DNA from: Dastarcus helophoroides
Lineage: Eukaryota > Arthropoda > Insecta > Coleoptera > Bothrideridae
Reading direction: 5' to 3'
DNA length: 64,000 nt
NCBI GenBank assembly: GCA_028583605.1
Contig: CM053329.1
Location: 17,770,455 to 17,834,454 of the forward strand
A program made the translations under genes and the position numbers. The first letter of the stretch is position 1. Each line of letters starts with the position of its first letter. The notes below the pieces were generated by a model. It made no database searches, was not told the DNA's origin, and saw only the letters and a program-made list of their open reading frames with translations. Positions 812-57,919 of the stretch are shown one piece after another.

Positions 812-1022
812 TTTGGTGGAACGAACTGGTCCTTGGTTACCCTCAAAGTTTGAAAGACAAATCTTGTCCCATGAAATCAAGAAAGATTAAAAAACACAAC
901 AGAGGTTGCTCTAACGCGTTTCGATAGCAAAGCTATCATATATCATCTTCAGAGAGATACTGAGTATCTCTCTGAGTGTTTTTTAACCTTTTTTGGTTTC
1001 AAGGGACAAGATTTCTATTTCA
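812..1022. mobile_element. Palindromic pLTR-like repeat copy
   Basis: This copy runs forward from the recurring start GAACTGGTCCTTGGTTA, through AAAAAACACAACA and GCTCTAACGCGTTTCGATAG, to TCTTCAGAGAGATACT. It then turns back as a partial reverse copy ending at GGGACAAGATTTCTATTTC. The minus strand carries a hammerhead-like core: CTGAAGA, a stem GATAGC/GCTATC, GAAA, then ACGCGT. An eight-base insertion lies between CTGAAGA and the stem, so it is probably inactive. The same family recurs at 14, 17, 18, 53-54 and 57-60 kb. Confidence 0.75.
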
Positions 1023-4000
1023 ATTTAAGAAAGGTATTAAATAATAACATTGAAAAAATTCAATTTTTTTTTCATAAGCTAAAAATTAAGTTTTCAACAA
1101 CTATTCCGGTTCAACAAGACTGAGAGTCAAAATATTGAATAAAAGACGTAATTTCGGACAAAAGAATTTTTCAAAAAAAGACAAATTAGTCGAATACTTC
1201 TTGAATAGAAATTTAAAAAAAAATGTCGCAATTTTCAAAAAAAATCAAAAACTGCGGAAGTCAAAATTTTAAACAACGGTGAAATTAAAAAAAAAAACGT
1301 CGACGTTTCTAAAACTGTCGACATTAGTCGATTTTTAATACTCAAGTCCTAAGAGGGTGAAAAAGGGTATTAATTAAACATTGAAAAAATTCAAAATTTT
1401 CTTTTATAAGCTAAAACTTAGTTACTCAACAGCTATTTTGGTCCAACAAGACTGAAAGTTAAACTTTTGAATAAAAGGCGTAATTTTAGACAATAGAATT
1501 TTTCAAAAAAGAGACAAATTTGTCGAATGGTTCTTGTATAGAAATTTTAAAAAAAGATCGCAATTTAAAAAAAAAATCAAAAACTTCGGAAGTCAAAATG
1601 TTAAACAACGGTGAATTAAAAAAAAAAGTTGACGTTTTTAAAACTGTCGACATTAGTCAATTTTAAGGACTCAAGTCCTAAGGGGGTGAAAAAGGGTATT
1701 AATTAAACATTGAAAAAATTCAAAATTTTCTTTTATAAGCTAAAAATTAGTTACTCAACAACTATTTTGGTCCAACAAGACTGAAAGTTAAAATTTTGAA
1801 TAAAAGGCGTAATTTTAGACAATAGAATTTTTCAAAAAAGAGACATATTTGTCGAATTCTTGAATAGAAATTTTAAAAAAATGTCGCAATTTAAAAAAAA
1901 AATCAAAAACTTCGGAAGTCAAAATGTTAAAAAACGGTGAATTAAAAAAAAAAGTTGACGTTTTTAAAACTGTCGACATTAGTCGATTTTGAGGACTCAA
2001 GTCCTGAGAGGGTGAAAAAGGGTATTAATTAAACATTGAAAAAATTCAAAATTTTCTTTTATAAGCTAAAAATTAGTTACTCAACAACTATTTTGGTCCA
2101 ACAAGACTGAAAGTTAAAATTTTGAATAAAAGGCGTAATTTTAGACAATAGAATTTTTTTAAAAAGAGACAAATTTGTCGAATGGTTCTTGAATAGAAAT
2201 TTTAAAAAAATGTCGCAATTTAAAAAAAAAATCAAAAACTTCGGAAGTCAAAATGGCAAAAACGGTGAATTAAAAAAAAGTTGACGTTTTTAAAACTGGC
2301 GACATTAGTCGATTTGAAGGACTCAAGTCCTAAGAGGGTGAAAAAGAGTATTAATTAAACATTGAAAAAATTCAAAATTTTCTTTTATAAGCTAAAAATT
2401 AGTTATTCAACAACTAGTTTGGTCCAACAAGACTGAAAGTTAAAATTTTGAATAAAAGGCGTAATTTTAGACAATAGAATTTTTCAAAAAAGAGACAAAT
2501 TTGTCGAATTCTTCTTGAATAGAAATTTTAAAAAAATGTTGCAATTTAAAAAAAATCAAAAACTTCGGAAGTCAAAATATTAAAAAATGGTGAATTAAAA
2601 AAAAAAACGTCGACGTTTCTAAAACTGTCGACATTAGTCGATTTTTAATACTCAAGTCCTAAGAGGGTGAAAAAGGGTATTAATTAAACATTGAAAAAAT
2701 TCAAAATTTTCTTTTATAAGCTAAAACTTAGTTACTCAACAGCTATTTTGGTCCAACAAGACTGAAAGTTAAAATTTTGAATAAAAGGCGTAATTTTGGA
2801 CAATAGAATTTTTCAAAAAAGAGACAAATTTGTCGAATGGTTCTTGAATAGAAATTTTAAAAAAAGGTCGCAATTTAAAAAAAAAATCAAAAACTTCGGA
2901 AGTCAAAATGTTAAACAACGGTGAATTAAAAAAAAATTGACGTTTTTAAAACTGGCGACATTAGTCGATTTGAAGGACTCAAGTCCTAAGAGGGTGAAAA
3001 AGGGTATTAATTAACCATTGAAAAAAATTCAAAATTTTCTTTTATAAGCTAAAAGTTAGTTACTCAACAACTATTTTGGTCCAACAAGACTGAAAGTTAA
3101 AATTTTGAATAAAAGGCGTAATTTTAGACAATAGAATTTTTCAAAAAAAAGACAAATTTGTCGAATGGTTCTTGAATAGAAATTTTAAAAAAATGTCTCA
3201 ATTTAAAAAAAAATCAAAAACTTCGGAAGTCAAAATGTTAAAAAACGGTGAATTAAAAAAAAAAGAGTCGACGTTTTTAAAACTGTCGACATTAGTCGAT
3301 TTTCAATGCTCAAGTCCTAAGAGGGTGAAAAAGGGTATTAATTAAACATTGAAAAAATTCAAAATTTTCTTTTATAAGCTAAAAATTAGTTACTCAACAA
3401 CTATTTTGGTCCAACAAGACTGAAAGTTAAAATTTTGAATAAAAGGCGTAATTTTAGACAATAGAATTTTTCAAAAAAGAGACAAATTTGTCGAATGGTT
3501 CTTGAATAGAAATTTTAAAAAAATGTCGCAATTTAAAAAAAAATCAAAAACTTCGGAAGTCAAAATGTTAAAAAACGGTGAATTAAAAAAAAAGTTGACG
3601 TTTTTAAAACTGTCGAGATTAGTCGATTTTAAGGACTCAAGTCCTGAGAGGGTGAAAAAGGGTATTAATTAAACATTGAAAAAATTCAAAATTTTCTTTT
3701 ATAAGCTAAAAGTTAGTTACTCGACAACTATTTTGGTCCAACAAGACTGAAAGTTAAAATTTTGAATAAAAGGCGTAATTTTAGACAATAGAATTTTTCA
3801 AAATAGGGACAAAATTGTCGAATTTTTCTTGAACAGAAAAAAAAATGGCGAAACTTTTAAAAAAGGTCGATAACTTTGGAAGTCAAAATGTTAAAAAACG
3901 GTGAAATTAAAAAAAAGTCGATATTTTGAAAACGGTCTACATTAGCCAATTTTAAGGACTCAAGGGGGCGAAAAAAAGTATTAATTAAATATTGAAAAAA

Positions 4001-17200: not shown

Positions 17201-17204
17201 TTCA

Positions 17205-17548
17205 AAATACAGAACTTGTCCCCTGAAACCAAGAAAGATTAAAAAACACAACAAATGTTGCTCTAACGCGTCTCGACAGCCAAGCTGTCATCTTCAGAGA
17301 GAAACTAGAGCAACCATTGTTGTGTTTTTTAACTTTTCTTGGTTTCAGGGGACAAGTTCTGTGTTTCAATTTTTGAAGATAACCAATCTCGATACCAATA
17401 ACGATCTTCTCTTTGAAGATGACATCTTGGCTGTCGAAACGCGTTAGAGCAACCTTTGTTGTGTTTTTTAATTTTGCTTGGTTTCAGGGGACAAGTTCTG
17501 TGTTTCAATTTTTGAAGATAACCAAGGACCAGTCCGTTGCATCAAATC
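17205..17548. mobile_element. Composite of three pLTR-like copies, one forward and two reverse
   Basis: A forward copy (17,210-17,305) is followed by a partial reverse copy (about 17,306-17,395) and a longer reverse copy (about 17,405-17,545) ending AACCAAGGACCAGTCCG. The forward copy carries GAGA instead of GAAA in the ribozyme-like core. The second reverse copy has TTGAAGA in place of CTGAAGA. Both should be inactive. This composite lies just beyond the 3' end of the endonuclease relic at 17,676-18,194. Confidence 0.75.
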
Positions 17549-23632: not shown

Positions 23633-24667
23633 GCTATGGAAAAACATGGTGAGGCTATGATTGCGGTATTGGATATCTCAAAGGCTTTCGACAGAGCCTG
23701 GCACCGATCTCTTCTCGCCAAATTAACATCTTATGGTCTTCCTCCTGGACTCTGCCATTTGATATCCAATTTTCTCGCTGACAGATCCCTTTTTGGTCGC
23801 CATCGATGGCATCTTATCCGAGACATTTGACGCAGGGGTACCCCAGGGGTCTGTTCTGTCTCCTACTGTATTTTTGTTACACATAAACGATCTCTTAGCT
23901 TCAACTTCCAATTCTACATACAGCTACGCAGATGATAGTAACCTTGTGTCATCTTTTTTCTCCGACCAACCATTATCTATCGCTGCTTCGGATCGACTAA
24001 GGGAACAGCAGATGCAGATGATTAATCGGTATCTCGAAATCATTCTGGAATGGGGTAAGAACAATTTGGTCGACCTCAACGCTTCGAAAACTCAGACCGC
24101 GGTTTTCTCTAAGAAAACATCAAGAGATAATGCAACAAACATACTAATGGATGGTAAAATCCTTCCGATGGGATCTAATCTATCTATCCTAGGAGTGAAT
24201 GCGAGCACTAACTTCTCTTGGGACGATCATGTGCGCGCCATTGCCAAATCCGCGTATCAGAAGCTAGGCTTTTTTTTAGAGCTAAAAAGTACTTCACATC
24301 TCATCAGCTATTAACACTATACGAAGCTCAAGTGGGGCCAACACTAGCCAATCCTGTTCTTATGTTTGGAGTTCAGCCCCAAAACACACTTTAGCTCTCT
24401 TGGATTCAATTCAAATAAGAGCGATTCGCCTAATTGATGACGAGAGTTTAACTGATTCTCTCGAATGCAAAAAGAATGCAACCTAGACTACAAATTCATG
24501 CAGCCCTCCAGGCGGCGTGTATAGTGAATCATAGGTAGCTGAATTACCAACAGTTGAAACACTGCCACCTAGCGAAGCGGTTGCTCTCTAGGAGAGTTCC
24601 CAGAAGACAAGGATTCTATAACGCACAGACTAATAGGTTTGAACATTTATTAGATTCGAAGTTTGGA

Positions 24668-24710
24668 AACCAAATACCGGTTTCGATCTTGTTAGATCTA
24701 GTCAGTTTGA
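24668..24710 (-). ncRNA. Decayed hammerhead ribozyme in the left arm
   Basis: This is the minus-strand counterpart of the ribozyme at 24,769. It keeps stem II GATCT/AGATC, the GAAA box and the ACCGGT palindrome, but the core reads CTGACTA instead of CTGACGA. The invariant G8 (complement of position 24,700) is lost, so cleavage is not expected. Confidence 0.75.
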
Positions 24711-24768
24711 CGCCTGTGAATGTTTTAGTACTTACTTGTCGGAACATTTATTAGCATTCGAGTTGGAT

Positions 24769-24815
24769 ATACCAAACTGACGAGATCTAAGAAGATCGAA
24801 ACCGGTATTTGGTGT
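24769..24815 (+). ncRNA. Hammerhead self-cleaving ribozyme, apparently intact
   Basis: All parts of the hammerhead consensus are present in order. Stem I strand TATACCAAA is followed by core CTGACGA (24,777-24,783). Stem II is GATCT, loop AAGA, AGATC (24,784-24,797). GAAA follows (24,798-24,801), then palindromic stem III ACCGGT (24,801-24,806), then the residue before cleavage, A24,807. The returning stem I strand, TTTGGTGT, pairs over 8 bp including one T-G. The very short self-complementary stem III is typical of retroelement hammerheads thought to work as dimers. Stem I can extend outward: GAACATTTATTAG (from about 24,742) pairs with CTAATAAATGTTC (to about 24,845). Predicted cleavage is after 24,807. 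Confidence 0.88.
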
Positions 24816-25254
24816 CCAAACTTCGAATCTAATAAATGTTCAAACCTATTGGTCTCTGCATTATAGAATTGATTCTTTCGAAACACTACAGCACAGGTGG
24901 ATGATTGATGACATCTCTTTTCTACGAGTACTATCATGGGAGATGGTCGCAGGAACTAATAGGATTGATCCCCCCAACGGCAAGATTCTTGAGGGGTACT
25001 AGACAGTCGGAGACAGCAAATCCCTGTGCGGTCCAGCTTGACACAGTGAGGACTTCTGTCTACGGAGACTATTTTTTTCTATAGAACTTCCAAGTTATGG
25101 AACTTGTTACCGAAAGGAATTTTCCCCAAGAATTACAACCTATCCTTGTTTAAGAAGGCGGTTCATTACCATCTATCTTTGTTTCCGCATTCTACTCGCA
25201 GTGCTTTGAAAACATAATGGGGTTATCCTTTGCGAGTGGATTGAACTTAAAAAA

Positions 25255-25627
25255 ATATCAAAGGCGCAACACTTTTAAAAATTGAAATAGAAAGCGAAAC
25301 TCTTTCGATCATCAAAGAAGACCTTTGGCCCACCATCGTAGGAAGCTTCATTAAGAACAAGAAAAAAATCAAATTCAAGACAGGAGAGTGTGAGGCGAAC
25401 TGACTATGTCAATTGTACCATAAGCGAAACCCTTCTGTAATCCAGGTAGCACAAAATGGGGGCAAAAGGATTCAATCAGTATAGGATTCTGTATGTCAAC
25501 TATACTAAAGATGAAGCTCATCTGCAAGGTGGAATGAAAAACTAAGATTCAAGATAGAAGACCACGGTAACTTAGCATGAGGACTATACCAAAGGCGAAA
25601 CTCTTTCGAATCTAAAATGGACAAAAT
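25255..25627. repeat. Satellite C resumes, diverged units
   Basis: Units with GGAAGC/ACAAGAAAAAAATCAAATTC and AGACCACGGTAACTTAG-type blocks continue directly after the LINE. They are more divergent than those before 23.6 kb. Confidence 0.75.
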
Positions 25628-25873
25628 ATAAGATGGTGAACAAATGACCAATTAAATGTTCTGTAATTAAACAGTTAAACGTGCTTAAAATTGAAAATAT
25701 GTACAACCGCAACCATAGACTAGTTTCGGCCTTCCTTGGCCTCATCAGCATGGTACGGTGGTTGTATACACTTCCTGTGACTTGTAACTGACTAATTGAA
25801 GCATTACTCTCTGCTGAGATAATAAGCGTTGTATATACGAATATATACAAGTTAATAATAATAAGATGGTGAA
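25628..25873 (-). mobile_element. 220-bp hammerhead-bearing element with 13-bp target duplication
   Basis: ATAAGATGGTGAA occurs at 25,628-25,640 and again at 25,861-25,873. The 220 bp between are unrelated to the satellite on either side, which marks a recent insertion with an exact 13-bp target duplication. The minus strand holds a full hammerhead (25,702-25,766). Nearer its 5' end on that strand is a perfect 9-bp hairpin TTGTATATA-TTCG-TATATACAA (25,829-25,850), and a TTATTATTAA tract abuts the duplication. No coding capacity. Size, ribozyme and duplication fit a small non-autonomous retrozyme-like element. Confidence 0.85.
25702..25766 (-). ncRNA. Hammerhead self-cleaving ribozyme, intact, with internal-loop stem I
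   Basis: Reading the minus strand: outer stem I TACAACC, internal loop, inner stem I ACCATG; core CTGATGA (25,748 down to 25,742); stem II GGCC, loop AAGGAA, GGCC; GAAA (25,727-25,724); palindromic stem III ACTAGT (25,724-25,719); C25,718 before cleavage, giving the favoured GUC triplet; then inner stem I TATGGT, internal loop TGC, and outer stem I GGTTGTA. Every conserved core base is present. The stem I internal loop opposite a six-base loop II is the arrangement used by fast natural hammerheads for tertiary contacts. Predicted cleavage lies between 25,718 and 25,717. This is the best ribozyme in the window. Confidence 0.92.
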
Positions 25874-26250
25874 GGAAAGAGGATGAACACTGAACTATAC
25901 TGGAGGCAAAACACTTCCAAAGTGAAAATGGCATAGAAACGAAGGCACTATTAATCATAACAAAGGCGAAATCCCTCTACAGAAACCATGCAATGGAAAA
26001 ACAAAACTGAAGACAAGATTGCACGATAACTCAGTATCTCAGCTATACCAGAGGCGAAACTCTCGCGAAATGAAAATGTCATAGAAGAATAGATACTCAA
26101 GGCAGAAAGCGAACGAAGATTCCAACTTTACTTGAGGGAAAATCCTTTCAAAGTGAGAATAGTCACAAAGGTCAAGACCCCTCCATATGATATACATATC
26201 AGAGGCGAAAATTCTTGTAATGGATCAATATTTTAAAAGTTGGAAACTGT
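25874..26250. repeat. Satellite C, last diverged units
   Basis: Recurrent ACTATACCAGAGGCGAAAC-type blocks and AAAATGGCATAGAAACGAA words show decayed satellite C. Similarity fades out by about 26,250. Confidence 0.65.
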
Positions 26251-29145: not shown

Positions 29146-32100
29146 CAAAAGAATAATTTGGCTCTTCATCAGGAAATTGTTTGGATTCCTTCAATTATTA
29201 TGATCAGCAGACAAAGTCATCTAAACAACTCCTGATCAATGAGACAGACATGTCGCCATCATTCCGTGTCAGGAACATATTCAAATACGTTCAAGTCGTC
29301 TTCAGAGACATAGTAATCTTAAAAGGTTAATTTGGTCTCGTTATTCTTCATCAGAACATTGTTCAGATGCTTTCAATTCTCCTCATCACGAGTTCAAGTC
29401 ATCTCAACAATTTCCTGATTACTGAAACAGACATTAGACTTTGGTTTACCATCAAAAAGTTATTCAGATCCCCCCAAGTTTTCAAAAGAAGATCACACTA
29501 ACCCTAAATAATAAATTTGGCTCATCAGGAAATTGTTTGGATTCCTTCAATTATTATGATCAGTAGACAAAGTCATCTAAACAACTCCTGATCAATGAGA
29601 CAGACTTGTCGCCATCATTCCGAGTCAGGAACATATTCAAATACGTTCAAGTCTTCTTCAGAGACATAGTAATCTTAAACGGTTAATTTGTTCTCGTTAT
29701 TCTTCATCAGAACATTGTTCAGATGCTTTCAATTCTCCTCATCACGAGTTCAAGTCATCTCAACAATTTCCTGATTACTGAGACAGACATTAGACGATGG
29801 TTTACCATCAAAAAGTTATTCAGATCCCCCCAAGTTTTCAAAAGAAGACACACTAACCCTAAATAATAAATTTGGCTCATCAGGAAATTGTTTGGATTCC
29901 TTCAATTATTATGACCAGTAGACAAAGACATCTAAACAACTCCTGATCAATGAGACAGTCATGTCGCCGTCATTCCGTGTCAGGAACATATTCAAATACG
30001 TTCAAGTCTTCTTCAGAGACATAGTAATCTTAAACGGTTAATTTGGTCTCGTTATTCTTCATCAGAACATTCTTCAGATGCATTCAATTCTCCTCATCAC
30101 GAGTTCAAGTCATCTCAACAATTTCCTGATTACTGAGACAGACATTAGACTTTGGTTTACCATCAAAAAGTTATTCAGATCCCCCCAAGTTTTCAAAAGA
30201 AGTCACACTAACCCTAAATAATAAATTTGGCTCATTAGGAAATTGTTTGGATTCCTTCAATTATTATGATCAGTAGACAAAGTCATCTAAACAACTCCTG
30301 ATCAATGAGACAGACATGTCGCCATCATTCCGTGTCAGGAACATATTCAAATACGTTCAAGTCGTCTTCAGAGACATAGTAATCTTAAAAGGTTAATTTG
30401 GTCTCGTTATTCTTCATCAGAACATTGTTCAGATGCTTTCAATTCTCCTCATCACGAGTTCAAGTCATCTCAACAATTTCCTGATTACTGAAACAGACAT
30501 TAGACTTTGGTTTACCATCAAAAAGTTATTCAGATCCCCCCAAGTTTTCAAAAGAAGTCACACTAACCCTAAATAATAAATTTGGCTCATCAGGAAATTG
30601 TTTGGATTCCTTCAATTATTATGATCAGTAGACAAAGTCATCTAAACAACTCCTGATCAATGAGACAGACTTGTCGCCATCATTCCGAGTCAGGAACATA
30701 TTCAAATACGTTCAAGTCTTCTTCAGAGACATAGTAATCTTAAACGGTTAATTTGTTCTCGTTATTCTTCATCAGAACATTGTTCAGATGCTTTCAATTC
30801 TCCTCATCACGAGTTCAAGTCATCTCAACAATTTCCTGATTACTGAGACAGACATTAGACGATGGTTTACCATCAAAAAGTTATTCAGATCCCCCCAAGT
30901 TTTCAAAAGAAGACACACTAACCCTAAATAATAAATTTGGCTCATCAGGAAATTGTTTGGATTCCTTCAATTATTATGACCAGTAGACAAAGACATCTAA
31001 ACAACTCCTGATCAATGAGACAGTCATGTCGCCGTCATTCCGTGTCAGGAACATATTCAAATACGTTCAAGTCTTCTTCAGAGACATAGTAATCTTAAAC
31101 GGTTAATTTGGTCTCGTTATTCTTCATCAGAACATTCTTCAGATGCATTCAATTCTCCTCATCACGAGTTCAAGTCATCTCAACAATTTCCTGATTACTG
31201 AGACAGACATTAGACTTTGGTTTACCATCAAAAAGTTATTCAGATCCCCCCAAGTTTTCAAAAGAAGTCACACTAACCCTAAATAATAAATTTGGCTCAT
31301 TAGGAAATTGTTTGGATTCCTTCAATTATTATGATCAGTAGACAAAGTCATCTAAACAACTCCTGATCAATGAGACAGACATGTCGCCATCATTCCGTGT
31401 CAGGAACATATTCAAATACGTTCAAGTCGTCTTCAGAGACATAGTAATCTTAAAAGGTTAATTTGGTCTCGTTATTCTTCATCAGAACATTGTTCAGATG
31501 CTTTCAATTCTCCTCATCACGAGTTCAAGTCATCTCAACAATTTCCTGATTACTGAAACAGACATTAGACTTTGGTTTACCATCAAAAAGTTATTCAGAT
31601 CCCCCCAAGTTTTCAAAAGAAGTCACACTAACCCTAAATAATAAATTTGGCTCATCAGGAAATTGTTTGGATTCCTTCAATTATTATGATCAGTAGACAA
31701 AGTCATCTAAACAACTCCTGATCAATGAGACAGACTTGTCGCCATCATTCCGAGTCAGGAACATATTCAAATACGTTCAAGTCTTCTTCAGAGACATAGT
31801 AATCTTAAACGGTTAATTTGTTCTCGTTATTCTTCATCAGAACATTGTTCAGATGCTTTCAATTCTCCTCATCACGAGTTCAAGTCATCTCAACAATTTC
31901 CTGATTACTGAGACAGACATTAGACGATGGTTTACCATCAAAAAGTTATTCAGATCCCCCCAAGTTTTCAAAAGAAGACACACTAACCCTAAATAATAAA
32001 TTTGGCTCATCAGGAAATTGTTTGGATTCCTTCAATTATTATGACCAGTAGACAAAGACATCTAAACAACTCCTGATCAATGAGACAGTCATGTCGCCGT

Positions 32101-35100
32101 CATTCCGTGTCAGGAACATATTCAAATACGTTCAAGTCTTCTTCAGAGACATAGTAATCTTAAACGGTTAATTTGGTCTCGTTATTCTTCATCAGAACAT
32201 TCTTCAGATGCATTCAATTCTCCTCATCACGAGTTCAAGTCATCTCAACAATTTCCTGATTACTGAGACAGACATTAGACTTTGGTTTACCATCAAAAAG
32301 TTATTCAGATCCCCCCAAGTTTTCAAAAGAAGTCACACTAACCCTAAATAATAAATTTGGCTCATTAGGAAATTGTTTGGATTCCTTCAATTATTATGAT
32401 CAGTAGACAAAGTCATCTAAACAACTCCTGATCAATGAGACAGACATGTCGCCATCATTCCGTGTCAGGAACATATTCAAATACGTTCAAGTCGTCTTCA
32501 GAGACATAGTAATCTTAAAAGGTTAATTTGGTCTCGTTATTCTTCATCGGAACATTGTTCAGATGCTTTCAATTCTCCTCATCACGAGTTCAAGTCATCT
32601 CAACAATTTCCTGATTACTGAAACAGACATTAGACGATGGTTTACCATCAAAAAGTTATTCAGATCCCCCCAAGTTTTCAAAAGAAGACACACTAACCCT
32701 AAATAATAAATTTGGCTCATCAGCAAATTGTTTGGATTCCTTCAATTATTATGATCAGTAGACAAAGTCATCTAAACAACTCCTGATCAATGAGACAGAT
32801 ATGTCGCCATCATTCCGTGTCAGGAACATATTCAAATACGTTGGAGTCGTCTTCAGAGACATAGTAATCTTAAAAGGTTAATTTGGTCTCGTTATTCTTC
32901 ATCAGAACATTGTTCAGATGCTTTCAATTCTCCTCATCACCAGTTCAAGTCATCTCAACAATTTCCTGATTACTGAAACAGACATTAGACTTTGGTTTAC
33001 CATCAAAAAGTTATTCAGATCCCCCCAAGTTTTCAAAAGAAGTCACACTAACCCTAAATAATAAATTTGGCTCATCAGGAAATTGTTTGGATTCCTTCAA
33101 TTATTATGATCAGTAGACAAAGTCATCTAAACAACTCCTGATCAATGAGACAGACTTGTCGCCATCATTCCGAGTCAGGAACATATTCAAATACGTTCAA
33201 GTCTTCTTCAGAGACATAGTAATCTTAAACGGTTAATTTGTTCTCGTTATTCTTCATCAGAACATTGTTCAGATGCTTTCAATTCTCCTCATCACGAGTT
33301 CAAGTCATCTCAACAATTTCCTGATTACTGAGACAGACATTAGACGATGGTTTACCATCAAAAAGTTATTCAGATCCCCCCAAGTTTTCAAAAGAAGACA
33401 CACTAACCCTAAATAATAAATTTGGCTCATCAGGAAATTGTTTGGATTCCTTCAATTATTATGACCAGTAGACAAAGACATCTAAACAACTCCTGATCAA
33501 TGAGACAGTCATGTCGCCGTCATTCCGTGTCAGGAACATATTCAAATACGTTCAAGTCTTCTTCAGAGACATAGTAATCTTAAACGGTTAATTTGGTCTC
33601 GTTATTCTTCATCAGAACATTGTTCAGATGCATTCAATTCTCCTCATCACGAGTTCAAGTCATCTCAACAATTTCCTGATTACTGAGACAGACATTAGAC
33701 TTTGGTTTACCATCAAAAAGTTATTCAGATCCCCCCAAGTTTTCAAAAGAAGTCACACTAACCCTAAATAATAAATTTGGCTCATTAGGAAATTGTTTGG
33801 ATTCCTTCAATTATTATGATCAGTAGACAAAGTCATCTAAACAACTCCTGATCAATGAGACAGACATGTCGCCATCATTCCGTGTCAGGAACATATTCAA
33901 ATACGTTCAAGTCGTCTTCAGAGACATAGTAATCTTAAAAGGTTAATTTGGTCTCGTTATTCTTCATCGGAACATTGTTCAGATGCTTTCAATTCTCCTC
34001 ATCACGAGTTCAAGTCATCTCAACAATTTCCTGATTACTGAAACAGACATTAGACGATGGTTTACCATCAAAAAGTTATTCAGATCCCCCCAAGTTTTCA
34101 AAAGAAGACACACTAACCCTAAATAATAAATTTGGCTCATCAGCAAATTGTTTGGATTCCTTCAATTATTATGATCAGTAGACAAAGTCATCTAAACAAC
34201 TCCTGATCAATGAGACAGATATGTCGCCATCATTCCGTGTCAGGAACATATTCAAATACGTTGGAGTCGTCTTCAGAGACATAGTAATCTTAAAAGGTTA
34301 ATTTGGTCTCGTTATTCTTCATCAGAACATTGTTCAGATGCTTTCAATTCTCCTCATCACCAGTTCAAGTCATCTCAACAATTTCCTGATTACTGAAACA
34401 GACATTAGACTTTGGTTTACCATCAAAAAGTTATTCAGATCCCCCCAAGTTTTCAAAAGAAGTCACACTAACCCTAAATAATAAATTTGGCTCATCAGGA
34501 AATTGTTTGGATTCCTTCAATTATTATGATCAGTAGACAAAGTCATCTAAACAACTCCTGATCAATGAGACAGACTTGTCGCCATCATTCCGAGTCAGGA
34601 ACATATTCAAATACGTTCAAGTCTTCTTCAGAGACATAGTAATCTTAAACGGTTAATTTGTTCTCGTTATTCTTCATCAGAACATTGTTCAGATGCTTTC
34701 AATTCTCCTCATCACGAGTTCAAGTCATCTCAACAATTTCCTGATTACTGAGACAGACATTAGACGATGGTTTACCATCAAAAAGTTATTCAGATCCCCC
34801 CAAGTTTTCAAAAGAAGACACACTAACCCTAAATAATAAATTTGGCTCATCAGGAAATTGTTTGGATTCCTTCAATTATTATGATCAGTAGACAAAGTCA
34901 TCTAAACAACTCCTGATCAATGAGACAGACATGTCGCCATCATTCCGTGTCAGGAACATATTCAGATACGTTCAAGTCTTCTTCAGAGACATAGTAATCT
35001 TAAAAGGTTAATTTGGTCTCGTTATTCTTCATCGGAACATTGTTCAGATGCTTTCAATTCTCCTCATCACGAGTTCAAGTCATCTCAACAATTTCCTGAT

Positions 35101-35185
35101 TACTGAAACAGACATTAGACGATGGTTTACCATCAAAAAGTTATTCAGATCCCACCAAGTTTTCAAAAGGAGACACACTAACCCT
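29146..35185. repeat. Satellite D core: 355-bp monomers in 3-mer then 4-mer higher-order repeats
   Basis: AAATAATAAATTTGGCT starts at 29,506, 29,861, 30,216, 30,571, 30,926, 31,281, 31,636, 31,991, 32,346, 32,701, 33,056, 33,411, 33,766, 34,121, 34,476 and 34,831: exactly 355 bp each. Diagnostic variants define monomer types: alpha (GACTTGTCGCC), beta (CAGTCATGTCGCCGTC), gamma (GGCTCATTAGG) and delta (CAGCAAATTG, TTGGAGTCGTC). The order is alpha-beta-gamma three times (1065 bp), then delta-alpha-beta-gamma-delta-alpha (1420-bp period). Each 355-bp unit is itself two diverged halves of about 171 and 184 bp, both with TTAATTTGG/TAAATTTGG, CATCTMAACAA, CCTGAT and GAGACAGACAT. The last monomer (34,831) is already drifting. 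Confidence 0.95.
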
Positions 35186-37202
35186 AAATAATAAATTTGG
35201 CTTATCAGGAAATCGTTCGCATTCCTTGAGTTATTCTGATTAGGAGACCAAATCATCTAAACAACTCCTAATCACTGAGATTATTTAAATTCGTTCAGGT
35301 CTTCTTAAGAGGACAAAGTAATCCTAAAACGTTAATTTGATTTTGTTGCTCTTCGGATGCGTTTAGATCTTCTTAAGAGGATAAACTTATCCTAAAAGGT
35401 TAATTTGATTTCGTTGCTCTTCATCAGAAAATTGTTCGGATGCTTGCAATTATCCTCATCACGAGTTCAAGTCATCTAAAAAATTTCCTGATTATTGAGA
35501 CAGAGATGAGATGATCTTTCGCTATCAAGAAAATGCTACAGATCCCTTCAAGTCTTCATAAGAAGCCATATTAAGTCTAAAAGAATAATATGTCTCTTCA
35601 GGAAATTGTTCGGATTCCTTTAATTATTCTTTTCAGGAGAATAAGTCATCTGAACAACTCCTGATCGCTGAGACAGACATTCCGTATCATAAACTTGTTC
35701 AAATTTATTCGGGTCTTTTTAAGAGGACAAATTAATCCTAAAGTATTAATTTGGTTTCATTGCTTTTCATCAGAAAATTGTTTGGATGCTATCAATTATC
35801 CTTATCACAAGTTTAAGTCATCTTAACAATTTTACGAATACTTAAACAGAGATTAGATGATCTTTTGCCATCGAGAAATGATTCAGATCCCTCCAAGTCT
35901 TCATAAGAAGCCATTTTAACTCTAAAGGAATAATATGCCCCTTTATCAAGAAATTGTTCGCATTCCTTTAGTTATTCTAATCAGAAGACCAAAGCATTTG
36001 AACAACTCCTTATGACTGACTAACCTTAAAAAAGTTAATTTGGTTTTGTTGCTCTTCATTAGAAAGTTGTTCGGATGCTTTCAATTGTCCTCATCACAAG
36101 TTCAAGTCATCTCAACAATTTGCTGATTATCGAGACAGAGATTAGATGATTTTTTGCCATCAAGAAGTGATTCAGATTTCTTCAAGTCTTCATAGAGATT
36201 AGATGATCTTTTGCGATCAATAAGTACATTCAGATCTATCCAAGTCTTCATAAGAAGCCATAATAATTCTAATGCCTCTTTATCAGGAAATTGTTCGCAT
36301 TCCTTCCGTTATTCTGATCAGGAACTAAGTCATCTGAACAACTCCTAATCACTGAGGCAGACATTCCGTATCTTGAACTTATTTAAATTCGTTTAAGTCT
36401 TCTTAAGAGGACAAACTAATCCTAAAAGGTTAATTTGATTTCGTTGCTCTACATCAGAAAATTGTTTGGATGCTTTCAATTATCCTTATCACAGTTCAAG
36501 TCATCTCATGAATTTCCTGATTATTGAGACAGAGATTAGATGATCTTTCGCCATCAAGAAGTGAGTCAGATTCCTTCAAGTCTTCATAGAGATTAAAAGA
36601 TTTTTCGCCATCAAGAAGTAGATTCATATCCCTTTAAGTCTTCATAAGAAGCCATATTAACTCTAACGCCTCTTCTTCAAGAAATTGTTCGCATTCCTTC
36701 AGTTATTCTAATCAGGAGACTAAGTCATCTGAACAACTCCTAATCACTGAGGCAGACATTTCGTATCATAAACTTATTTAAATTCGTTCCAGTCTTCTTA
36801 AGAGGACAAACTAATCCTAAAAGGTAAATATGATTTCGTTGCTTTTCATCAGAAAATTGTTTGGATGCTTTTAATTATCCTCATCATGAGTTCAAGTCAT
36901 CTCCTAAATTTCCTGATTATTGAGACAGACATTAGATGATCTTTCGCCATCAAGAAATGAGTCAGATCCCTTCAAGTCTTCATAGAGATTAGATGATTTT
37001 CCGCCATCAAGAAGTGGATTCAGATCCCTCCAAATCTTTATAAAAAGCCATATTCACTCTAATGCCTCTTCATCAGAAAATTGTTCGTGTTCCTTCAATT
37101 GTTCTGATCAGAAGACTAAGTCATCTAAGGAACTCCTAATCACTGAGGCAGACATTCCGTATCATGAACTTATTTAAATTCATTCAGGTCTTCTTAAGAG
37201 GA
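35186..37202. repeat. Satellite D, right divergent monomers
   Basis: The same motifs continue (GGTTAATTTG, GTCATCT.AACAA, GAGACAGA) but with many substitutions and length changes, and the 355-bp register is lost. This is the older flank of the homogenised array. Confidence 0.88.
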
Positions 37203-38042
37203 CAATATTTTTTTTAAAGTGTAATCCACTCTCAAAGGGTAACCCCATTATGCTTTCAAAGCACTGCGAGTAGGATACGGAAACAAGGATAGATGGCGAT
37301 GAACCGCCTTCTTAAACAAGGATGGGTTGTAATTTTTGGGGAAATTCCTTTCGGTAACAAGTTCCATAACTTGGAAGTTCTATAGAATAAAGAGTCTCCG
37401 TAGACAGAAGTCCTCACTGTGTCAAGCTGGACCGCACAGGAATTTGCTGTCTCCGACTCTCTAGTACGCCTCAAGAATCTTGCCCTTGGGGGGATCAATC
37501 TTATTAGTTCCTGCAAGCATCTTCCATGATAGTACTTGTAGAAAAGAGATAAGTCACCAACCATACGCCTGCGCTCTAGTATTTCGAGAGAATCTGTCAA
37601 ACTCTCGTCATCAATTAGGCAAATCGCTCTTTTTTGAATTGAATCCCAGAGAACTAAAGTGTGTTTTGGGGCTGAACTCCAAACATGAGAACAGTATTCT
37701 AATGTTGGCCTAACTTGAGCTTTGTATAGTGTTAATAGCTGATGATATGTGAAGTACTTTTTAGCTCTAAAAAGAAAGCCTAGCTTCTGAGAGGCGGATT
37801 TGGTAATGGCGCGCACATGATCGTCCCAAGAGAAGTTAGTGCTCGCATTCACTCCTAGGATAGATAGATTAGATCCCATCGGAAGGATTTCATCGTCCAT
37901 TAGTGTGTTTGTTGCATTATCTCTTGATGTTTTCTTAGAGAAAACCGCGACCTGAGTTTTTGAAGCGTTGAAGTCTACCAAATTGATCTTACCCCATTCC
38001 AGAATAATCTCGAGATCCCCATTAATCGTTTGTATCTACAGT
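37203..38042 (-). mobile_element. LINE 3' fragment inserted in satellite D
   Basis: The minus strand carries the same LINE as 23.6 kb, truncated 5' near GGAACTGTAGATAC and ending in TTTAAAAAAAATATT beside satellite sequence. Its DNA is close to the 23.6-kb copy over the shared part and lacks the 404-bp insert, which confirms that insert as secondary. Confidence 0.88.
37256..37981 (-). pseudogene. LINE reverse transcriptase C-terminal part, open for 241 codons
   Basis: This is the longest open frame in the window with a recognisable protein family. It begins after the catalytic YADD box, so it has no polymerase active site. Visible blocks are DFNASKTQVAVFSKKTS (thumb), LGVNASTNFSWDDHVRAI, TLYKAQVRPTLEYCSHVW, LWDSIQKRAICLIDD, LERRRMVGDLSLFYKYYHG and RTSKLWNLLPKGI, the usual order in the C-terminal part of CR1/Jockey-like LINEs. 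The frame stays open upstream to about 38,030, where a stop (TAG) and the truncation point lie. Without start, endonuclease or polymerase core it is a non-functional remnant, though little decayed. Confidence 0.85.
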
Positions 38043-40710: not shown

Positions 40711-40975
40711 ACTTTTTTTTTAAAGTTTAGTCCAAAGGGTAACCCCATTATGCTTTCAAAGCAGTGGGAGTAGGATGCGGAAACAAGAATAGATGGCGAT
40801 CAACCGCCTTCTTAAACAAGGATGGGTTGTAATTTTTGGGGAAATTCCTTTCGGTAACAAGTTCCATAACTTGGAAGTTCTATAGAAAAAAGAGTCACCG
40901 TAGACAGAAGTCCTCACTGCGTCAAGCTGGACCGCACAGGAACAAGAATAGGTTGTAATTTTTGGGGATAATTAC
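40711..40975 (-). mobile_element. LINE 3'-end fragment
   Basis: About 225 bp of the same LINE 3' end lie here (minus strand, 3' edge near 40,715). At 40,940 the sequence jumps and repeats part of the element again (AGGTTGTAATTTTTGGGG, as at about 40,825), which indicates an internal duplication or rearrangement. Confidence 0.82.
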
Positions 40976-42120
40976 TTTTGAAATCTCTTGACCTCGACAA
41001 AAGTTTTCAAAAAAAAAATCGTCTTGGGACATTGTAGTCTTCCATTTAAGCTATTTATTATTCGACTGAGATTTTTCAAAGACGCATCTTCTTGAGATAG
41101 TCTACCGTTCTCCGTTTAATCTACAGATCTTCTTATGAAAATTTTGGCGAAAGGATTCTTGTAGACACATTCTTCTTCACGTCCTTTGTCGTACATGTTT
41201 TTCATATTCCTTGTAGTAATTATCGTTAATAAAGTTTATTACTTATCAGTAAATGTTGGAAAAAAATCCTCTTGAAACATTTTTTTCTCCCACTACTTTA
41301 CTCCAATTTTTGGGGGAGACATATTTTTGAAAAACTAGCCCAGTTCCCACTGATAGTTCTCGATTTTAAAGAAAGAAATCTTCTTGGGACAGTCTCTAAC
41401 GTTTTATTTAAAATATATGTAAATCCATGGAAATTTTGGAAAGACAAATCTTCTTGAGATAGTCTATCACCCTCCAATTAATCTAAAGTTCTCGCTATGG
41501 AAATTTTGGCAAAAGAATTCTTCTAAGGGCATGCTATAATTTTCCAATTGGCTTCTAGTTTCTTTATATATTCTCTGTATTTTCTTTGCGAAGTAGTCTT
41601 ATTTTCATTCATGTTTTATTGGCTTATTCTTAGGCAGTTACTCCGTCCACAATTCTAGATTCTATAAGAGATTGAAAATTCCTAACAGAAGGTAACTGAA
41701 GATGTGGAATGACAAAGGCAAAGCAGTTACTCCTTCCACGATTTTAGATTCTATAAGAGATTGAAAATTCCTAACAGAAGGTAACTGGAGATGTATAATG
41801 GCAGAGGCAAAGCAGTTATTTCTGCCACAATTCTAGATCTTCAGTAACCTCCTGTAAAGGACCGGTAATCTCTTACATAATCTAGAATTGTGGAAGGAGT
41901 AAGTGACGAAGAAAAATCCATTAAAACATGAATTATTTTTGCCTTACCGTAAATTTTGGGCAAAAACTCCTCTTGAAATATTTTTTTCTCTTACTACTTA
42001 AACCTCCAAGAACAATATTTAAGGAAGTTATCTTAAGAAACCAGCTCAGTTTCCTCTTAATGGCTTACTAGACGATACACATTTTAAAGAAAGAAATTTT
42101 CTAATGTTTTACATAAGTTA
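40976..42120. repeat. Satellite E, degenerate units of about 100 bp
   Basis: Loose repetition of AAATTTTGG, ATCTTCTTGAGACA and TTAATCTA.AT blocks. It includes a local duplication and inversion at 41,635-41,912, described separately. Confidence 0.65.
41635..41912. repeat. 103-bp tandem duplication plus inverted copy
   Basis: GGCAGTTACTCCGTCCACAA and GCAGTTACTCCTTCCACGAT start two tandem units of about 103 bp, both with GATTGAAAATTCCTAACAGA and AGGTAACTG. A third partial unit follows. At about 41,868-41,910 the reverse complement of the unit start appears (TCTAGAATTGTGGAAGGAGT), so the block can fold back on itself. Confidence 0.75.
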
Positions 42121-43338: not shown

Positions 43339-43434
43339 ACTTGGAAGTTCTATAACTTGGAAGTTCTATAACTTGGAAGTTCTATAACTTGGAAGTTCTA
43401 TAACTTGGAAGTTCTATAACTTGGAAGTTCTATA
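43339..43434. repeat. 16-bp minisatellite, six perfect copies
   Basis: ACTTGGAAGTTCTATA is repeated six times without change from 43,339 to 43,434. The unit is part of the adjacent LINE sequence (single copy as AACTTGGAAGTTCTATAG near 37,370 and 40,868). Confidence 0.95.
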
Positions 43435-43567
43435 GAAAAAAGAGTCTCCGTAGACAGAAGTCTTCACTGTGTCAAGCTGGACTGCACAGGAATTTGCTGT
43501 CTCCGACTGTCTAGTATGCCTCAAGGATCTTGCCCCTGACGGGATCAATCCTATTAGTTCCTGCTTG
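43419..43567 (-). mobile_element. LINE fragment lacking its 3' end
   Basis: The fragment matches the LINE from the ACTTGGAAGTTCTATAG site through TCTCCGTAGACAGAAGTC and TCAAGCTGGACTGCACAGGA to CCTATTAGTTCCTGC. It has no 3' tail, so it is a broken piece and not an original insertion end. Confidence 0.85.
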
Positions 43568-51060: not shown

Positions 51061-52300
51061 TCGGGAGATATTTTCCGACGTTTGCTTCATTTGTCTTGTC
51101 TTATTCATTTGGTTTTTGTGCTAAATTAAAACTTTTTTCAAAATTTTGACTCTTTTTGTAAATGTAATTATGGTATTTTTTTTATTTTTCTGCCTTCTTT
51201 TAAAAGTGCCCACTTTCCAATTTTGACTTTTGGTCAAAATTTTGACTAATTCTCGGAATGTTTACTTTTTTTGAAACTCTATATTTTGAAATTTTGACTT
51301 ATTTTGACATTTTGAATTCTTAACCATTTTGCCTTGCTTCAGTTTATTTGTTTAATTCATTTTGGTTTATTTGCTAAATTAAAATTTTCTTTAAAATTTT
51401 GACTTTTTTTGTAAATGTGATTATGGTAATTTTTTTATATTTCTACCCTTTTTTAAAAATGTCCACTTTCCAATTTCGACCTTTGGTCAAAATTTTAATT
51501 ATTTCTCGGATTTTTTTTTTTTTGAAACACTATATTAATATTTTGACTTATTTTGACATTTTGAATTCTTTAACCATTTTGCCTTGCTTCAGTTTATTTG
51601 TTTAATTCATTTTGGTTTATTTGCTAAATTAAATCTTCCTTTAAAATTTTGACTTTTTTTGTAAATGTGATTATTGTAATTTTTTTTATATTTCTACCCT
51701 TTTTTATAAATGCCCACTTTCCAGTTTCGACCTTTGGTTAAAATTTTAATTATTTCTCGGTTTTTTTTTTTTTTTTGAAACACTATATTGAAATTTTGAC
51801 TTATTTTGACATTTTGAATCCTATTCTTCATGGTAGACCCTTATTGACCGGAAATATTATGTTTTTTTCAATTTATTTAACATTTCTTCGGCCCAGTTTG
51901 GAAATATTTAAATTTTTCTGTTGTTTAGAAATTTGTCAACAAACCAGAAAAATTTAAATATTTCCAAACTGGGCCGAAGAAATGTTAAATAAATTGAAAA
52001 AAACATTTTGAATCCTTTCACCATTTCGCCTTGCTTCATTGGTTTTGTCTAATTCAATCGGTTTATTTGCTAAATTAAAGCTTTAAGGTGATTATGGTAA
52101 TTTTTTTTTACATTTCCACCTTCTTTAAAAATGCCCACTTTCCAATATCCACCTTTGATTACATTTTGACTATTTCTTGGAATTTTTACTTTTTTTTTTA
52201 GAAACACCGTATTTTGAAATTTTGACTTATTTTGACATTTTGAATCTTTTCACCTTTTCGCCTTGCTTCATTTGTTTTGTCTAATTCATTTGGTTTTTTC
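51061..52300. repeat. Satellite G, about 250-bp units
   Basis: GCCTTGCTTC occurs at 51,331, 51,581, 52,028 and 52,259. The spacings are 250, 447 (250 plus the hairpin insert) and 231. Units share TTGACTTATTTTGACATTTT and GCCCACTTTCCA-type blocks. Small plus frames come from the repeat. Confidence 0.87.
51823..52002. mobile_element. Hairpin insert with 62-bp perfect arms and 14-bp target duplication
   Basis: ACATTTTGAATCCT occurs at 51,809-51,822 and 52,003-52,016, where the intact satellite unit has it once. Within the insert the arms 51,859-51,920 and 51,945-52,006 are perfect reverse complements over 62 bases around a 24-base loop; the last bases of the right arm overlap the duplication. 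The first 20 bases resemble 50,629-50,650, so the element has a relative nearby. No coding capacity; a foldback or MITE-like element is most likely. Confidence 0.8.
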
Positions 52301-53640: not shown

Positions 53641-53880
53641 AGACTCTTTTTTTATGGAACGGACTGGTCCTTGGTTATCTTCAAAAATTGAAATACAAAT
53701 CTTGTCCATTGAAACCAAAAAAGATTAAAAAACACAACAAAGTTTGCTCTAATGCGTTTCGAAGGCCTTCTCTCTGAAGATGATAGCTTAGCTATCGAAA
53801 CGCGTTAGAGCAACCTTTGTTGTGTTTTTTAATCCTTTTTGGTTTCAGGGGACAAGATATCTATTTCAATTTTCTGAATT
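53641..53880. mobile_element. Palindromic pLTR-like copy
   Basis: A forward arm from GGAACGGACTGGTCCTTGG (53,657) to GCGTTTCGAAGG joins a full reverse arm from CCTTCTCTCTGAAGATGATA to GGGGACAAGATATCTATTTC. The reverse arm holds the best-preserved hammerhead-like motif of this family. Confidence 0.8.
53770..53812 (+). ncRNA. Hammerhead-like motif of the pLTR family, best copy
   Basis: In order: stem I CTCT (53,770-53,773); core CTGAAGA (53,774-53,780); one extra T; stem II GATAGC, loop TTA, GCTATC (53,782-53,796); GAAA (53,797-53,800); palindrome ACGCGT (53,800-53,805); T53,806 before cleavage; returning stem I AGAG. Stem I is only 4 bp and the triplet is GUU, both weak. The extra base between A9 and stem II departs from the consensus; the chrysanthemum chlorotic mottle viroid hammerhead is a known active example with an extra base at that place. 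Active folding is possible but less sure than for the two motifs near 25 kb. Confidence 0.6.
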
Positions 53881-57220: not shown

Positions 57221-57410
57221 ATCTTGAGGCTCTTTAGAGCAACCACTAGCATGGCTATCACAACAAAAGTTGCTCTAACGCGTTTTGATAGTCAAGATAT
57301 CATCTTCAGCAGGATACTGTCTCTATTTATTTATCTCTGTGAAGATGATAACATGGCTATCACAACAGCAGTTGCTCTAACGCAATTCGATAGCCAATGT
57401 ATCTTCTTCT
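57221..57410. mobile_element. Scrambled pLTR-like fragments
   Basis: Forward pieces GTTGCTCTAACGCGTTTTGA and GTTGCTCTAACGCAATTCGA alternate with reverse pieces GAAGATGATAACATGGCTAT. The ribozyme-like cores are broken. The fragments run directly into the CCAT tract. Confidence 0.7.
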
Positions 57411-57919
57411 CCATCCATCCATCCATCCATCCATCCATCCATCCATCCATCCATCCATCCATCCATCCATCCATCCATCCATCATCCATCCATCCATCCA
57501 TCCATCCATCCATCCATCCATCCATCCATCCATCCATCCATCCATCCATCCATCCATCCATCCATCCATCCATCCATCCATCCATCCATCCATCCATCCA
57601 TCCATCCATCCATCCATCCATCCATCCATCCATCCATCCATCCATCCATCCATCCATCCATCCATCCATCCATCCATCCATCCATCCATCCATCCATCCA
57701 TCCATCCATCCATCCATCCATCCATCCATCCATCCATCCATCCATCCATCCATCCATCCATCCATCCATCCATCCATCCATCCATCCATCCATCCATCCA
57801 TCCATCCATCCATCCATCCATCCATCCATCCATCCATCCATCCATCCATCCATCCATCCATCCATCCATCCATCCATCCATCCATCCATCCATCCATCCA
57901 TCCATCCATCCATCCATCC
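57411..57919. repeat. (CCAT)n microsatellite, 509 bp
   Basis: CCAT is repeated for about 509 bp with a single visible break (ATCATCC near 57,481) that shifts the phase by one base. All long frames through it (Ser-Ile-His-Pro on plus, Met-Asp-Gly-Trp on minus) are products of the tetranucleotide read in every frame; they are not genes. Confidence 0.98.

Follow-up and report, generated by a model that had tools for sequence, protein, structure and literature searches.

Hammerhead-bearing, retrozyme-like insertions with two recurrent ends in the beetle Dastarcus helophoroides and their possible link to Penelope-like elements

The 64-kb stretch of Dastarcus helophoroides DNA analysed here, which we call the window (C5:17770455-17834454 of a genome searched as 538,885,228 bases in 50 contigs), carries on its minus strand a 220-bp insertion, element 1 (25641..25860), bounded by unit tiling and by an exact 13-bp direct repeat, ATAAGATGGTGAA, whose copies are read directly at 25628..25640 and 25861..25873 on the plus strand. 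Within it lies HHR1, a type I hammerhead on the minus strand at 25702..25766, identified by direct reading, by a motif descriptor and by its match to Rfam family RF02275. The 5′ strand of stem I occupies 25766-25749 (UACAACC, ACCGU, ACCAUG) and is followed by CUGAUGA from 25748, GGCC-AAGGAA-GGCC, GAA and A-CUAG-U; C17 is at 25718, and UAUGGU-UGC-GGUUGUA at 25717-25702 completes stem I, whose 6 + 7 pairs include one G.U. The type I core, an N-U-H triplet and three helices open at helix I are thus all present, with helix III reduced to one pair, and cleavage is predicted at the 25718/25717 bond of the minus strand. The initial annotation had described a complete hammerhead here, and each part that it named, including the GUC triplet, the scissile bond, the stem I split by an internal loop and the six-base loop II, can be read directly where it had placed them. 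Elsewhere in the window are a 355-bp satellite (29166-35280; 17 copies, 96% alike), a (TCCA)n run of about 128 copies (57410-57919), a mir-7-like match scoring 38.7 bits against a gathering threshold of 51.8 (51885-51980), and a LINE reverse-transcriptase-like frame (37256-38035, minus strand) whose named relatives are beetle proteins and which has related pieces, including 3′ pieces, at 40716-40978 and 43345-43564.

Element 1 is an internally deleted, one-armed copy of a 460-nt non-coding repeated unit, F1 (GC 0.374; longest ATG frame 34 aa in the tripled unit). With units numbered from the predicted cleavage site, u403-460 and u1-78 tile 25775-25640 and u230-294 tiles 25856-25792; about 16 bp of other sequence separate the two pieces, and u295-402, about 108 nt, are absent. 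The 220-bp element of the initial annotation is therefore a real insert between 13-bp direct repeats, but one that holds a single arm lacking about 108 nt and not the 460-nt unit. Its end at 25640/25641, near u78, is the one called site A below. The insertion interrupts a degenerate satellite, the joined flanks being about 70% identical across the join to 26022-26160. The genome holds 69 matches to element 1 among those listed (best 40 of 1,442 candidates scored), of which 26 are identical over query positions 86-220, and 48 of the 57 F1 hammerheads in the sampled loci are identical copies with an intact core. We considered and rejected a SINE with a plus-strand (AAT)n tail, since it is the site A end that the copies share, and on the (AAT)n side they have 5′ stops at varying places.

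A second canonical hammerhead, overlooked by the initial annotation together with the two-ended structure of the insertions, lies within a kilobase. HHR2 (24759..24830, plus strand; found with RF02275 and the descriptor) is of type I, with its core starting at 24777, predicted cleavage after 24807 and a stem III of A-CCGG-U. It belongs to element 2, a two-armed insertion of 404 bp (24466..24869, both strands) delimited by tiling and by an empty site, which is supplied by the LINE copy at 37205-37745. The host, also a LINE copy, is split by element 2 into an RVT_1 fragment (43 bits within 23763-24314) and a 3′ part (23763..25258 overall, plus strand). The arm ending at site A (u~59; 24710..24869, plus strand) holds HHR2, and the arm ending at site B (u~212; 24466..24709, minus strand) holds a decayed core, CUGACUA, without a stem I partner. 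Target duplications of 13 bp, differing by one mismatch, flank the pair at 24453..24465 and 24870..24882 on the plus strand. The corresponding unit, F2, is 377 nt long (GC 0.424; longest ATG frame 25 aa in the tripled unit), and a genome search lists 82 matches (best 40 of 837 candidates scored). Kinship between F1 and F2 was rejected, their best local alignment score of 21 falling inside the shuffled range (mean 19.75, maximum 31). Also rejected was a host or PLE coding origin for the 146 bp to the left of the palindrome in element 2, which contain a 33-aa frame without a Pfam match and are part of the F2 unit. At another locus, L091 (C11:11722000-11726600), a two-armed F2 insertion stands in tandem at least 8 times with a period of about 513 bp, and there a retrozyme insertion seems to have turned into satellite DNA.

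Penelope-like elements (PLEs) are abundant in the same genome. A search for the GIY-YIG domain (PF01541) gave 91 matches (best 150 of 1,070 candidates scored), and one locus, L112, has a 417-aa open frame that matches both RVT_1 (45.2 bits) and GIY-YIG (29.2 bits), its nearest named relatives being longhorn beetle proteins. The window also contains a third repeat, with copies at 53774 (+), 17297 (-), 17414 (+), 58128 (-), 14192 (+) and elsewhere, and 57 genome matches among those listed (best 40 of 1,485 scored). It has a minimal hammerhead-like core, CUCU-CUGAAGA-U-GAYAGC...GCURUC-GAA-ACGCGU-U-AGAG, with an extra U after A9 and a stem II that differs on both sides between copies. Because this repeat occurs in 13 of 20 GIY-YIG loci, it is probably the pLTR of a PLE. 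Fragments of the repeat tend to stop at one of two places, a short end (query 98-106) or a point some 30-35 nt further on (132-134); among 19 head-to-head pairs, seven combine a short with a tailed fragment, 10 have other palindromic flanking sequence and two are unclassed. Duplications of 8-13 bp accompany five of the seven short/tail cases and neither unclassed pair. Two such short-plus-tailed pairs lie in the window, at 812..1026 (12-bp duplication with 1 mismatch) and at 53644..53878 (no duplication found), each spanning both strands. Rfam microRNA-like matches below the gathering threshold at 17204-17367 and 670-809 overlap head-to-head PLE fragments and are likely to be PLE palindromes, not microRNA genes. 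A further canonical hammerhead family, F3 (L113-L128), accounts for 57 listed RF02275 matches, the best of them at 45.9 bits. Its stem III is a ten-base palindrome (ACAUCGAUGU), and its head-to-head arms, about 475 nt long, have alternative ends that lie about 39 nt apart, one of each being found in L116, L121 and L126. F3 was rejected as a circular retrozyme, as no wrapping of its arms was seen and most begin at a single 5′ point. Pieces resembling the F1 unit occur in 3 of the 20 GIY-YIG loci, strongly in L097 (91% over 482 columns) and weakly in L095 and L101; the F2 unit has no match within these 20 loci.

The evidence that HHR1 is a hammerhead is of several kinds. The descriptor (CUGANGA, stem II of at least 4 pairs, GAA, a closed stem III, H17 and a stem I of at least 5 pairs), which was composed after both window sites were known and which accepts a one-pair stem III with a tetraloop, matches the 64-kb window twice, at 25748 minus (HHR1) and 24777 plus (HHR2). 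Dinucleotide-preserving shuffles of the window gave 2 matches in total over 4,525 windows, which bears out the earlier judgement that chance assembly of these parts is unlikely. The exact core pattern had no match in the viral contigs searched. The initial annotation had proposed a covariance scan and named a low score as evidence against the ribozyme, and in part such a score was obtained: neither HHR1 nor HHR2 matched any member of the Rfam hammerhead clan at its gathering threshold. The best match of HHR1 is RF02275 (Hammerhead_HH9), at 25.5 bits against a gathering threshold of 52 over 25695-25767, with E = 0.0012 when 1.5 kb is searched and 0.052 when the 64 kb is searched; by itself this score is unconvincing. 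HHR2 reaches 31.4 bits (E 6.5e-4 in 64 kb). RF02275 has its core and topology in common with HHR1, HHR2 and F3 and is the best Rfam match of all three, yet with scores of 25.5, 31.4 and at most 45.9 bits, all under 52, we do not claim membership; the same search at E ≤10 also finds matches in 11 of 14 control genomes, none above the cut-off. The assignment of HHR1 therefore rests on its anatomy, its genomic copies and covariation over three families.

Covariation was assessed in 11 hammerheads chosen from 29 distinct ones (4 of 9, 4 of 16 and 3 of 4 for F1, F2 and F3), a list in which L116 and L117, which overlap, are counted twice. Pairing holds in 93.4% of the cells of this set, both sides vary at 8 of 11 pairs, and the covariation is 0.602 vs 0.242 for shuffled and at most 0.081 for slid alignments. 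Further pair types in the same 11 sequences do not exceed shuffles (196/500), and the covarying changes lie mostly between the three families and so represent few events. Sequence constraint on the ribozymes within families was rejected as an argument: divergence is 0.0072 vs 0.0221 in F1, where 11 of 460 windows are as low, and 0.0239 vs 0.0334 in F2, where 78 of 377 are, and in both families the loci had been chosen by likeness in that very region.

In both HHR1 and HHR2, helix III consists of a single A-U pair capped by a palindromic tetraloop (CUAG and CCGG, respectively). In computed folds the six-base stem III stretches alone formed no hairpin, and as dimers they pair at -4.8 (CUAG) and -8.3 (CCGG) kcal/mol. 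The axolotl ribozyme HHR_Amex1, as described in PMC7229834, likewise has a weak helix III with a palindromic tetraloop, and cleavage by this form, with its one-pair stem III, is poor in the monomer and improves in the dimer. Given the one-pair helix III of HHR1, by analogy with HHR_Amex1 we would expect it to cleave as a dimer. An alternative stem I register without the internal loop has equal computed energy (-20.0 vs -19.7 kcal/mol), and contact between loop I and loop II is uncertain for that reason. The fast-type architecture ascribed to HHR1 in the initial annotation is not upheld, both because the one-pair form is a poor cleaver as a monomer in the axolotl and because of this rival register. 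Minimum free energy (MFE) folds of the isolated HHR1 strand favour other core pairings.

The most distinctive property of these insertions is the arrangement of their ends. We tiled the units along 39 F1 loci, 37 F2 loci and the window copies, merging tiles at most 60 bp apart into one insertion. The sampled loci are the best-scoring ones (40 of 1,442 F1 and 40 of 837 F2 candidates scored), and since the locus queries contained the ribozyme and site A, arms having only B are under-sampled; end counts exclude the L091 array and 3 F1 and 2 F2 entries cut by the end of a locus. Two recurrent edges emerge, A at u~81 in F1 and u~59 in F2, and B at u~272 in F1 and u~209 in F2, so that A and B are separated by about 191 and 150 nt; the zones were defined after the tilings and span 38 of 460 (F1) and 36 of 377 (F2) positions. 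Joined arms lie head to head with their RNA-sense 3′ ends outward, and no tail-to-tail pair was seen inside clusters of tiled F1 and F2 loci, L091 aside. Uncut two-arm insertions have one end of each kind in 41 of 49 cases (A/A 1, B/B 0, other 7), comprising 17 of 20 in F1, with 3 other, and 24 of 29 in F2, with 1 A/A and 4 other. When both ends fall in a zone, 41 of 42 two-arm insertions are mixed, where independent ends predict at most half. One-arm insertions account for 18 of 38 uncut F1 cases (13 A, 4 B, 1 other) and 9 of 38 in F2 (5 A, 3 B, 1 other). Exact duplications of at least 11 bp flank 33 of 75 insertions compared with 6 of 402 random intervals, the commonest length being 12 bp; 21 of 76 uncut insertions (10 of 38 F1, 11 of 38 F2) have no duplication of 7 bp or more. 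Circular MFE folds are no more than suggestive of A and B lying close together, as 70 of 460 (F1) and 27 of 377 (F2) same-spaced pairs are equally close.

The copies also bear on the form of the template RNA. Among arms that are not truncated at a locus end, 49 of 62 in F1 and 61 of 70 in F2 cross the cleavage junction; starts no more than 3 nt away from the junction number 2 of 62 and 3 of 70. Arms longer than one unit number 21 of 65 in F1 and 18 of 72 in F2, with maxima of 979 and 959 nt, although element 1 itself has no more than one unit in a row. As most arms cross the junction, the template would for the most part have been not the cut linear monomer but circular or uncut multimeric RNA. 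Two same-direction hammerhead motifs occur in only 9 of 41 F1 and 4 of 40 F2 entries, and because such entries are few we prefer the circle, which is probably the template of both families. Uncut multimeric RNA would fit the template data equally well.

F1 and F2 look like animal retrozymes. The metazoan non-LTR retrozymes described in PMC7229834 similarly combine a type I hammerhead with a short, AT-rich, non-coding unit, have more than one unit in a row and are flanked by target duplications longer than 4 bp. The initial description, a type I hammerhead whose stem III is palindromic, set in a short element of the animal-retrozyme kind, with PLEs as the other known setting, thus agrees with what the genome contains. 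The sampled beetle insertions differ from the metazoan retrozymes of that account in being mostly head-to-head pairs with two fixed ends, not plain tandems, and the 460-nt F1 unit, known from DNA copies, is longer than their 170-400 nt RNAs. Plant LTR retrozymes, as presented in PMC7761336, are hammerhead-bearing non-coding retroelements for which movement through RNA circles has been proposed, but they have a type III hammerhead, LTRs and 4-bp duplications. With PLEs as described in PMC3846280 and PMC11167929, F1 and F2 share a head-to-head arrangement of arms, a choice of two 3′ ends of which one bears a tail, short duplications of the target, a type I hammerhead and AT-rich insertion sites. 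Unlike PLEs they lack an RT-GIY-YIG frame, neither unit having an ATG frame above 34 aa, their hammerheads are full and not minimal, and their ends lie 150-190 nt apart as opposed to 30-40.

What the copies themselves display is the fixed ends, the rule of one end of each kind, arms placed head to head, target duplications and the passage of arms across the cleavage junction. The matched pair of ends suggests PLE-type spread as RNA circles, and we regard it as fairly probable, judging from sequence, that element 1 is a hammerhead retrozyme-like element whose RNA circle PLE machinery copied into the two strands at a break in the target. The protein, the circle, cleavage and the order of steps we infer as follows. 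A locus with two same-direction hammerheads would be transcribed, and the ribozymes, probably acting as dimers through the palindromic stem III, would release unit-length RNA, which a host ligase could close, as the account in PMC7229834 leads us to suppose. A PLE protein would then make cuts about 12 bp apart in the two target strands, and of the resulting DNA ends one would prime reverse transcription from site A, the other from site B; both cDNAs would extend to variable stops and be joined head to head. For the more specific proposal that this is double-ended target-primed reverse transcription on one RNA circle, with a stagger of about 12 bp, the sides starting at A and B and both copying the same RNA sense, we see the case for and against as evenly balanced. 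The further identification of such double-ended insertion with a PLE reaction acting on rolling-circle RNA could equally prove right or wrong. In favour of a PLE reaction, PLE insertions have pLTRs arranged head to head, one of which may carry a tail (PMC3846280), and in the work reported in PMC11167929 a purified PLE, PAc, cuts and extends both strands, with two internal start sites that bound a 30-40-nt tail. Against it, the A-B spacing of about 191 and 150 nt is far wider than this tail; F1 and F2 resemble each other no more than chance would predict, so that no common PLE binding site is shown; and the PAc study describes the two strands as alike in start site, when the rule of one A and one B would seem to call for a difference. 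The one-arm insertions, those with no duplication of 7 bp or more and the 12 PLE head-to-head pairs outside the short/tail class also count against it.

The same retrozyme might instead have been moved by a LINE, whose protein would prime on the RNA and, through twin priming, produce inverted arms. LINE copies are present in the window, and LINE insertion can give rise to inverted 5′ ends and to duplications of such size. In twin priming, however, the second copy is expected to start at scattered places, whereas both ends of F1 and F2 are fixed in most two-arm copies. Nor was a poly-A or simple-repeat tail common to site A seen in the tiled copies, as judged by eye and uncounted, and the short/tail pattern is found in PLEs of the same genome too. 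LINEs have been named as possible retrozyme partners (PMC7229834), but on these grounds we consider movement by a LINE unlikely.

Another idea is that F1 and F2 are leftover solo pLTRs of PLEs, equipped with full hammerheads, and not independent circle-forming retrozymes. The pLTR-like third repeat, with its ends about 30-35 nt apart and its presence in 13 of 20 GIY-YIG loci, lends this some weight, as do F3, which joins a canonical hammerhead to ends about 39 nt apart, and the F1-like pieces in 3 of the 20 loci. What makes it quite improbable is that F1 and F2 arms reach lengths of 979 and 959 nt by wrapping around closed repeats of 460 and 377 nt, that the tripled units hold no ATG frame longer than 34 aa (F1) and 25 aa (F2), and that the F2 unit is unmatched in the 20 loci. 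A still more basic objection, that HHR1 is an inactive or accidental hammerhead-like fold within repetitive sequence, could draw on the low Rfam score and on the preference of the isolated strand for other core pairings in MFE folds; set against the 2 descriptor matches per 4,525 shuffled windows, the covariation and the intact core in 48 identical copies among 57 F1 hammerheads of the sampled loci, it has very little likelihood. Of these explanations we favour copying of a retrozyme-like RNA circle by PLE machinery.

The question of which enzyme moves animal retrozymes gives these insertions a wider interest. Insects have already been said to hold retrozyme-like repeats, and PLEs have been put forward as a strong candidate partner of animal retrozymes (both in PMC7229834), whose repeats, according to PMC7761336, contain no motif betraying the partner enzyme. 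We found no report of two fixed head-to-head retrozyme ends, or of beetle retrozymes, in open-access titles and the openings of abstracts. If insertion proves to be a PLE reaction on rolling-circle RNA, the identity of the enzyme would be settled, and the PLE-like insertion fingerprint is one that can be searched for in any genome with retrozymes. Two-strand priming has been demonstrated for one purified PLE (PMC11167929), and F1 and F2 provide two RNAs, short and defined, whose predicted start sites would allow direct tests of such priming.
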